Shown piece after piece: positions 33,006-35,611 of a DNA stretch of 36,264 nt. Positions within the stretch are counted from its first letter, which is position 1. Each line of letters opens with the position of its first letter. A program made the translations under genes and the position numbers. The notes beneath the pieces are model-generated. The model was not told the origin of the DNA and ran no database searches. It worked only from the letters and a program-made list of their open reading frames with translations. This DNA is from an uncultured Chloroflexota bacterium (GTDB lineage: Bacteria > Chloroflexota > Chloroflexia > Chloroflexales > Roseiflexaceae), in assembly GCA_937859575.1 (NCBI GenBank), contig CALLZL010000595.1, positions 1 to 36,264 on the forward strand. Direction: 5' to 3'.

Positions 33006-33635
33006 CTACCCCTGGCGGCGATTGGCCTGCAGCGCCTGCCAACCGGCCGCTACCTGGGCTGCCGTTGCGGCCAGCGAACCGCTATTGTCGATCACGAGAT
33101 CGGCCTGGGCAACACGGGCTGCCTGGGATGGCTGGGCGGCGATACGCTGCTCGGCTTCGGCAGGTGTCATGCCGCGCGATTCCACCAGGCGTGCCAGTTG
33201 CTGTTCGGGGGTGCATGTTACAACCCACACCGCATCACAGAGCGGTTTCCAGCCGGCTTCGAGCAGCTTGACGGCATCAATCACCGCGACACTGCCGGGG
33301 GCTTCGGCGGCACGTTGTGCAAGCCAGGCATGCAGATGGGCATGCACAGCCGGATGCACAATCTGTTCGAGGCGACGCAGTTCGGCCGGATCGGCAAAGA
33401 CGATCGCCGCGAGGCGCCGCCGGTCGATCGGGCCGCCGGGCGCGCTCAGGATCGCATCGCCGAAGGCCGCCACGATCGCCTGATACACCGGCTGCCCCGG
33501 TTGCTGCAAGGCATGGGTGACGGCATCGGCGTCAATGGTTGCCGCACCATGGGTATGCAGCAGTTGCAGCACCGTGCTTTTACCACAGGCGATATTGCCC
33601 GTCAGGCCGATCAGTGTTAATCCCCGGTATGGCAT
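33006..33635 (-). CDS. coaE: Dephospho-CoA kinase
   Basis: A 209-residue P-loop kinase that phosphorylates the 3'-hydroxyl of dephospho-CoA, the last step of coenzyme A synthesis. The P-loop is GNIACGKST (13-21). It is followed by the DADAVTH substrate motif, the LEQIVHPAVHAHLHAWL helix and the VWVVTCTPEQQLARLVESRGM lid region, where R-x-x-x-R-x-G-like residues bind ATP. Its ATG overlaps the TGA of the upstream amidohydrolase gene by one base (TGATG), so translation is coupled. Confidence 0.95.
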   Translation of the reverse strand: MPYRGLTLIGLTGNIACGKSTVLQLLHTHGAATIDADAVTHALQQPGQPVYQAIVAAFGDAILSAPGGPIDRRRLAAIVFADPAELRRLEQIVHPAVHAHLHAWLAQRAAEAPGSVAVIDAVKLLEAGWKPLCDAVWVVTCTPEQQLARLVESRGMTPAEAEQRIAAQPSQAARVAQADLVIDNSGSLAATAAQVAAGWQALQANRRQG

Positions 33636-35611
33636 CAGAGTTCAACATACTCCTGTTTGACGAGCGCCGTCTCATCGATTTCGAACAACTGCAGCAGTTC
33701 ACCAATCAGGGCTGCCTTGGTATCGGCATCCTTATGGCTCCAGGTGCGGCTCTTGATCTCGATATACGGTCCGGGGCGTTGGTGGCCGACGAGTGTATCG
33801 ATGTTGATGGCGAAATCTTCGCCCTTATAGATAATGCGCCAGCGGCGGCGGCGCTTTTCGAGATCGACAACCCGATCAGGGGCGAAATATTCGCGGTAGA
33901 AGCGCATGGTACGCACGGCAGGTGCGGTATAGCGCGCCCGGCCGATCAGAATTGCCGATGGGTATTCGTCGAGGCGCGCCGGTACGGTGAGGGTGATCGT
34001 ATACTTCGGCTCGGCGCGGGCACCCGGATCAATGCGATGGTCTTCCCGTAACCGCAACCGCCCACGCGATTCGTCATGCCAGAGGAAGAAGGTATCGTAC
34101 TGGGTGCGTTCGCTGGCTTTCGTAATCGTAAACGGTTCGTGCGCGAGTGCTTCGATAATACGTTCGGCATTTTGCGGATCGCCGATCAGCGCCTTTACCT
34201 GCACTTCAAACTGTTCGTTCTGACGCACACCGCCGACCGCCAGGATCTTGTCGAGCAAATTGTCTTCGCGTTCGGCAAGAAAGGTGTTGATCTGTTCGGC
34301 AATGGCCCGGGCTTCCTGCAGAATTGCCCCTGCGTCGAGAGTTTGCAGTGCGCCGTTGCGCAACAGGGCATGCCCATCGACGAAGACATCACGCACATCG
34401 GCCGAGCGGGCGGCATAGACCAGGTACGAATAGATCGCGTTGATGTCGTAGGTATAGCGTGGTGAAGAGTGGAGTTGATCGAGTTCGACCACCACCACAT
34501 CGGCGCGGCGACCGGCGGTGAGCGAGCCGATGATGTGATCGAGATGGATGGCCTTTGCACCCGATGATGTTGCAAGCGCGAAGGCATCCCGCGCCGGAAC
34601 AACCGTCGGATCGCCGCTGACCCCTTTGGGGAGCAGGGCGGCGAGGTGGATCTCGGCAAACAGATCCTGGTCGTCGTTTGAGCCGGGGCCATCGGTGCCA
34701 ATACCGGTGCGCAGGCCGGATTCGATGAAGCGCCGGATAGGCGGCAGGCCACTGGCGAGTTTGAGATTGGAAGAGGGGCATGTGACCACACCGACACCAT
34801 GCTGATGCAGGAGCACAATGTCTTCTTCGGTGGCATGAACACAGTGCGCCGCGATACAGTGCACATCAAACGCGCCAACCCCGCGTGCATACGCAATCGG
34901 CGTGATCGAGCGCTCGGCGCGGCTTTCGACCACCTCGCGGGCTGTTTCCGAGAGGTGGGTGACGAGCGGCACATCATAGCGGCGGCAGAGCGCGGCTGCC
35001 TCGTGGTAGATCGAATCGGTGCAGGTATACGGCGCATGCGGGGCTATCGTGGGGATGATGCGCTCGTGGCCATGCCAACGCTCGATGAAGCGCCGCGCCC
35101 GCTCGAGGCCGTCGTCGAATGAAGCGGCGTCAGGCGTCGGCAGACGCATGACCGTCTGGCCGCAGATGGCACGCATGCCGGAATCGGCCGCCACCTGGGC
35201 GACCTCCTCTTCGAAGTAGTACATGTCGACAAAGGTTGTGATTCCGCCGCGGATCATCTCGGCACAGGCCAACCGTGTGCCGGTGGCGACAAACGCAGCA
35301 TCGCAGAAGCGGCTTTCGACCGGGAACATGTAGCCGAAGAGCCAGACATCGAGCTGTTGATCGGCAACCAGGCCGCGCATGAGGCTCATAGGCACATGGG
35401 CATGGCCATTGATCAGGCCGGGAATGATTGCACATCCCGAGCAATCGATCGTCTCACCGGCAGCGTAGGTGGCAGTGAGCTCGCTTGTCGTACCGACGGC
35501 GACGATCTCGCGGCCACGGATCGCAACCGCACCATCGGCGATCACGCGCTGCTGCGCATCCATTGTGACAACCACACCATGAACCAGGAGCGTATCGCAC
35601 GATTCAGGCAT
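33635..35611 (-). CDS. Amidohydrolase (MTA/SAH-deaminase-like) fused to a C-terminal CYTH domain
   Basis: The N-terminal 450 residues form a metal-dependent amidohydrolase of the 5'-methylthioadenosine/S-adenosylhomocysteine deaminase or chlorohydrolase group. It has the metal ligands H70 and H72 (NGHAH), the PHAPYT motif (H192), H219 in THLSET, H256 in AAHCVH and D307 in GTDGPGSND. Such enzymes deaminate adenosine-like compounds. Residues 465-658 resemble a CYTH/triphosphate-tunnel domain: FEVQVKA (ExQxK in place of ExExK), TQYDTFF, RLRLRED, EKRRRRWRIIYKGEDFAINID and YIEIKSRTW. CYTH domains act on triphosphates or as class IV adenylate cyclases. No frameshift separates the halves, so the fusion is encoded as one protein. 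Confidence 0.85.
   Translation of the reverse strand: MPESCDTLLVHGVVVTMDAQQRVIADGAVAIRGREIVAVGTTSELTATYAAGETIDCSGCAIIPGLINGHAHVPMSLMRGLVADQQLDVWLFGYMFPVESRFCDAAFVATGTRLACAEMIRGGITTFVDMYYFEEEVAQVAADSGMRAICGQTVMRLPTPDAASFDDGLERARRFIERWHGHERIIPTIAPHAPYTCTDSIYHEAAALCRRYDVPLVTHLSETAREVVESRAERSITPIAYARGVGAFDVHCIAAHCVHATEEDIVLLHQHGVGVVTCPSSNLKLASGLPPIRRFIESGLRTGIGTDGPGSNDDQDLFAEIHLAALLPKGVSGDPTVVPARDAFALATSSGAKAIHLDHIIGSLTAGRRADVVVVELDQLHSSPRYTYDINAIYSYLVYAARSADVRDVFVDGHALLRNGALQTLDAGAILQEARAIAEQINTFLAEREDNLLDKILAVGGVRQNEQFEVQVKALIGDPQNAERIIEALAHEPFTITKASERTQYDTFFLWHDESRGRLRLREDHRIDPGARAEPKYTITLTVPARLDEYPSAILIGRARYTAPAVRTMRFYREYFAPDRVVDLEKRRRRWRIIYKGEDFAINIDTLVGHQRPGPYIEIKSRTWSHKDADTKAALIGELLQLFEIDETALVKQEYVEL

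Follow-up and report, generated by a model that had tools for sequence, protein, structure and literature searches.

A gene of 658 codons in the window analysed here (the whole 36,264-nucleotide stretch of contig CALLZL010000595.1, from an uncultured Roseiflexaceae bacterium of the phylum Chloroflexota) encodes a nucleoside deaminase fused to a CYTH (triphosphate-tunnel, TTM) domain: known domains in a new architecture and with a new active-site state. As judged from alignments and structural models, some of the residues of both metal sites are gone from the predicted tunnel, which has become more positive, with K620 and R560 replacing acidic residues.

CYTH/TTM domains are ancient. Their physiological role is still largely elusive (PMC8233210). 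A survey of ten CYTH clusters gives only CHAD and phosphoribulokinase partners among the large multi-domain clusters (PMC8233210); the statement in the initial annotation that CYTH proteins usually stand alone or join HD or CHAD domains was thus incomplete. The literature searched, whose scope did not extend to the 2002 CYTH survey of Iyer and Aravind, contained no relevant paper on a combination of CYTH with an amidohydrolase.

Domain composition of the fusion protein

Frame reading places the ATG at position 35611 and the TGA at 33635–33637, with no internal stop between them (Table 1). The initial annotation had described one uninterrupted frame that joins a complete amidohydrolase of the adenosine-deaminase type, with all its expected metal ligands, to a CYTH-like region. 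Its coordinates and strand are exact, and its account of the deaminase agrees with what follows.

Table 1 Features of the fusion gene and its neighbour (window coordinates)
Feature	Position	Strand	Details
Whole fusion gene	33635..35611	(-)	658 aa; ATG start, TGA stop
N-terminal amidohydrolase half, MTA/SAH/adenosine deaminase type, residues 1-445	34277..35611	(-)	Pfam, NCBIfam, structure match
C-terminal CYTH/TTM-fold domain, residues ~465-645, eight strands and closing helix	33677..34219	(-)	Pfam, AlphaFold2, Foldseek, hhalign
E469-V-Q471-V-K473, ExExK position	34193..34207	(-)	Gln for the second Glu in all fused proteins
R570-F-Y-R-E-Y-F576 helix between strands 5 and 6	33884..33904	(-)	Near-invariant fused-family signature
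E618-I-K620-S-R622, C-terminal metal-binding ExExE position	33746..33760	(-)	Lys for the second Glu and Arg for the third in all fused proteins
coaE (dephospho-CoA kinase)	33006..33635	(-)	Pfam CoaE, E 1.1e-49; context only

Residues 62–415 match Amidohydro_1 (Pfam, E = 7.6e-66), and the full catalytic set (HxH, H, H and D plus the catalytic Glu; that is, H70, H72, H219, E222, H256 and D307) is retained in the deaminase half. Together with D88 and S311, these six residues are unchanging in 70/70 distinct fused proteins. The top NCBIfam model was the TRZ/ATZ hydrolase PRK09045, followed by N-ethylammeline chlorohydrolase and 5′-deoxyadenosine deaminase models; none of the NCBIfam models reached its equivalog cut-off (429 of 540 bits). 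The nearest solved relatives are MTA/adenosine deaminases, with TM-scores of 0.96–0.97 for the N-terminal half against 4dzh, 4gbd and 4f0r. The structures from P. aeruginosa (4gbd/4dyk), C. violaceum (4f0r) and X. campestris (4dzh), of which 4gbd was solved with methylthio-coformycin, share 35–38% identity with the whole N-terminal half, along with the metal ligands and the catalytic Glu, His and Asp. These solved enzymes are stand-alone proteins of about 450 amino acids, whereas the fused clade adds a TTM domain of 200 amino acids and, at residue 88, has an Asp that never varies, in place of the Met of the aligned enzymes. The protein is best explained as a purine-nucleoside deaminase that depends on Zn and falls within the MTA/SAH/adenosine type, these being its predicted substrates.

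The proposed relationship of the C-terminal region to Pfam CYTH (PF01928) was borne out in relatives but fell short for the protein itself. Residues 469–630 of the 658-residue protein matched CYTH at E = 0.0082, scoring a sub-threshold 16.4 bits where the gathering score is 23.2; the C-terminal domain alone matched at E ≤ 0.01 in 25/44 diverse relatives (best, 2e-9), and several genomic copies exceed the Pfam cut-off. AlphaFold2 gave confident models of the whole protein (pLDDT 91.0, pTM 0.85; 44-row alignment) and of the domain alone (pLDDT 91.4, pTM 0.87), both showing the domain as an eight-stranded barrel with a closing helix, as expected of the tunnel that the initial annotation had proposed. 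A Foldseek search of the PDB with this domain returned TTM/CYTH proteins as the nearest solved structures, headed by PH1819 (2een), SaTTM (7ns9, TM 0.65/0.73), AtTTM3, class IV cyclases and ygiF. Identity to the SaTTM-type CYTH triphosphatases (7ns9, 2een) is about 15–20%, and a sequence search of the PDB with the domain profile gave no real match. A chance resemblance to CYTH is ruled out by the matches in relatives and by the fold search. The motifs named in the initial annotation (EVQVK, RLRLRED, EKRRRRW and IEIKSRTW) are all found, with their key charged residues unchanging in the 70 distinct proteins. Because the hallmark ExExK is missing (ExQxK throughout), sequence and model together mark the domain as a divergent relative within the CYTH superfamily rather than a canonical CYTH enzyme.

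Substituted residues of the tunnel

We compared the 70 distinct fused proteins with 34 ordinary CYTH domains from the same class. The canonical domains were picked by matching the pattern E.E.K and by motif score, and 34/35 Pfam-found loci gave one; the β4 Lys and β5 RxExE positions played no part in the choice. Residues were mapped by profile–profile alignment in hhalign (probability 89–94%, E from 2e-6 to 3e-8, as a single comparison). Against only four canonical CYTH domains the alignment was poor and partly out of register, whereas with 34 the domain aligned through.

The position of ExExK reads E/Q/K in 70/70 fused proteins and E/E/K in 34/34 canonical domains, the latter count being circular because E.E.K was the selection pattern. 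At the C-terminal ExExE position, 70/70 fused proteins have ExKxR, compared with E/E/E in 34/34 canonical domains, a count that is partly circular. The RxExE motif of strand 5 has become R558-x-R560-x-562, with R560 in 70/70 and mostly Thr or Leu at residue 562, and the Lys of the strand-4 TLK is lost in the fused proteins, giving way to Thr, Met, Ile, Val, Leu and, once, Arg. Canonical domains keep the Glu or Lys at the swapped places in 34/34 cases, or 31/34 at one place. The swaps fall on residues that, in TTM tunnels, bind the catalytic metals or make up the acidic face. The initial annotation had noticed the change to ExQxK, which proves universal in the fused set; the changes at 560 (Glu to Arg), 620 (Glu to Lys) and 622 (Glu to Arg) and the loss of the β4 Lys go beyond it. 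These further substitutions strengthen its suggestion that the domain may bind a ligand without classical catalysis or may control the deaminase.

Other positions never vary. E469, Q471, K473, E618, K620 and R622 are fixed in the fused set, as are R520, R522, K586, R588, R590, D506, N603 and D605, and the 25 invariant residues of the domain include 7 Arg, 4 Glu, 4 Asp and 3 Lys. A mostly charged set of invariant residues is what a conserved ligand pocket would show, rather than a decaying or purely structural domain.

SaTTM binds its pair of metals with E5, E7, E135 and E137 (PMC8233210). Mutants of AtTTM3 at Glu-2, Glu-4 and Glu-169 and of ygiF at Glu-6 and Glu-160 are impaired in triphosphatase activity; AtTTM3 Glu-4 and ygiF Glu-6 correspond to the second Glu of ExExK, and AtTTM3 Glu-169 and ygiF Glu-160 to the C-terminal motif (PMC4641920). 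That mutating the corresponding Glu cripples known TTM proteins, and that the acidic positions are replaced in all 70 fused proteins, supports retired catalysis. Marker motifs of the established activities are missing as well. The cyclase (CyaB) motif HFxxxxExExK (PMC8233210) is replaced by RQNEQFEVQVK, with HF in none of the rows listed; the W/YxRxR of thiamine triphosphatase (PMC8233210) is replaced by RxRxR, mostly with Arg at the first position and with Trp or Tyr in none of the rows listed; and the C-terminal ExE of TTM triphosphatases, for metals 1 and 2, is ExK in 70/70. The earlier idea of an enzyme that clears a nucleotide signal or damaged nucleotides finds no support, and neither does a clearance pathway for cyclic nucleotides.

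The TTM domain could nevertheless still be an enzyme with altered chemistry: a metal-independent or one-metal pyrophosphatase, lyase or phosphotransferase, acting on a substrate linked to the deaminase's nucleoside and making the protein bifunctional. The domain could conceivably retain some catalysis, or a single weak metal site, because E469, D506, D605 and E618 are invariant in 70/70, together with a dense set of Arg and Lys; moreover, pyrophosphate is the reported substrate of AtTTM1 and AtTTM2, which are also fused and lack ExExK (PMC8233210). However, both metal sites are altered, with a Glu-to-Lys exchange among the changes, at positions equivalent to those whose mutation cripples known TTM proteins (PMC4641920), and the substrate Lys of β4 is gone. 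We regard an active tunnel enzyme as unlikely.

Like the SaTTM-type CYTH triphosphatases (7ns9, 2een; PF01928), the C-terminal domain has the eight-stranded tunnel, the RxR of strand 3, the basic strand 6, the Asp of strand 7 and the first Glu of both acidic motifs; it differs in ExQxK for ExExK, ExK for ExE, RxRx(T/L) for RxExE and the absent TLK Lys. Plant AtTTM1 and AtTTM2 (7z67, Foldseek rank 15) similarly combine a nucleotide-metabolism enzyme with a TTM domain devoid of canonical ExExK and ExE (PMC8233210). Their partner is a P-loop phosphoribulokinase/uridine-kinase-like domain, they occur in plants and Amoebozoa and they keep W/YxRxR; the likeness drawn here is one of motif loss. The ygiF-type CYTH–CHAD proteins are also two-domain proteins with CYTH (PMC8233210), but there the CYTH domain is N-terminal and catalytic, and its partner is CHAD.

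Distribution and genomic neighbourhood

The C-terminal 215 residues were matched in 38/40 related genomes, with all 16 genera represented, and nearly every such match lies in a frame of about 660–700 codons or longer. Among 301 Chloroflexota genomes, sampled evenly, a profile of the C-terminal half found 62: 29/30 of the same order, 1 elsewhere in the class and 32 from other classes. Copies of the N-terminal half with at least 47% identity occur in exactly those 62 genomes, in frames of 658–824 codons, and every copy is fused bar one (genome G007) that is split by contig ends. The remaining N-half matches have at most 40% identity and mostly lie in frames of 440–530 codons; one of 708 codons (G072) carries no C-terminal domain in its sequence. 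Both halves thus occur in the same 62 genomes while less similar deaminases are unfused, which indicates that this deaminase clade and its domain form one evolutionary unit.

This distribution excludes the assembly error that the initial annotation had raised as a concern, and a chimeric contig is ruled out by the architecture shared across the related genomes and the phylum. For the fusion to be an artefact as a whole (a chimeric contig, a missed stop or a chance CYTH likeness), the sub-threshold Pfam score of the protein itself would have to outweigh the 62 genomes with the same architecture, the relatives above the CYTH cut-off and the confident TTM fold; we consider this extremely improbable.

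No match to the C-terminal domain was found among 72,556 plasmids. In a separate contig collection, scanned with peptide patterns from one sequence that reach close relatives only, the named matches are Anaerolineae. One metagenome-assembled contig (BPHZ01000010.1) has a homologue in two frames, broken near query residue 200, probably by a sequencing frameshift.

The start of coaE overlaps the fusion stop (TGATG, 33633–33637), a sign, read from the sequence, of putative translational coupling of the two genes, and most of the Chloroflexales examined have coaE closely downstream of the fusion gene. At five Anaerolineae loci (L077, L079, L083, L085 and L086), the start of the fusion gene lies within a cinA-type gene (MoCF_biosynth plus CinA_KH) or at its stop codon, and genes that by eye resemble glycogen synthase and 4-alpha-glucanotransferase follow closely downstream. 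At three others (L034, L080 and L082), a pyrimidine-nucleoside phosphorylase gene, a nucleoside-salvage neighbour, is divergent to the fusion gene. The neighbours coaE, cinA and glgA are housekeeping genes and give no consistent pointer to the ligand.

Apart from the fusion, the host genome encodes a canonical CYTH protein (L039) in which both ExExK and ExExE are preserved. The genome has an MTA phosphorylase above its cut-off, PNP, AhcY-like loci and two classical adenosine deaminases, so no single missing salvage step indicates the substrate; a second TRZ/ATZ-type deaminase was not found at E = 1e-5. The AhcY-like loci number two (L119 and L120); by eye, the open reading frame downstream of L119 resembles a SAM synthetase. 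Separately, canonical ExExK CYTH domains open frames of about 705–760 codons at L091, L092 and L094.

Proposed role of the tunnel domain

On balance, we lean towards a former enzyme domain that has become a catalytically retired, metal-independent binder of polyphosphate or nucleotide and that regulates the attached nucleoside deaminase. A polyanion, whether triphosphate, NTP, polyphosphate or a nucleotide signal, would be bound in the TTM tunnel by direct contact with Arg and Lys and without a divalent metal, K620 and R560 compensating for the absent metals. The bound ligand would be left unhydrolysed, and opening or closing of the tunnel would be relayed to the adjacent barrel, setting deaminase activity. 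In role, the domain would then resemble ACT or CBS domains. The fusion, the fold, the conservation and the residue swaps are set out above; that binding is metal-free, which ligand is bound and how it acts on the deaminase are inferred from them.

The domain might instead serve assembly or tethering, through oligomer contacts or by holding a macromolecular polyanion such as RNA or polyphosphate granules, with deamination not directly affected. Foldseek also brings up the TTM-like Mediator head subunits Med18/20, which are not known to be enzymes, and the domain is strongly basic and contains the family-specific RFYREYF helix. By the strand assignment, however, positions on the predicted tunnel strands, and not just on the surface, appear to be invariant and charged, and a tethering role seems to us improbable.

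Within the regulatory-binder reading, it is possible, though here we are more tentative, that in a distinct TTM lineage, with Lys and Arg for metal ligands, a triphosphate hydrolase has turned into a sensor of phosphate or nucleotides that needs no metal and is directly connected to a deaminase of SAM-derived nucleosides. SAM synthetase gives off tripolyphosphate-derived products, and MTA/SAH/adenosine-type deaminases act on SAM by-products. Speculatively, PPPi or PPi from SAM synthetase could be the ligand, coupling SAM production to by-product clearance.

The roughly 70 proteins from Chloroflexales and Anaerolineae amount to a natural experiment on the TTM fold without classical catalysis, in which the activity of the attached deaminase offers a built-in readout of the TTM domain's role. 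Were it to act as a sensor, the domain would represent an allosteric form of the TTM module and add a new point of control to purine and SAM salvage.
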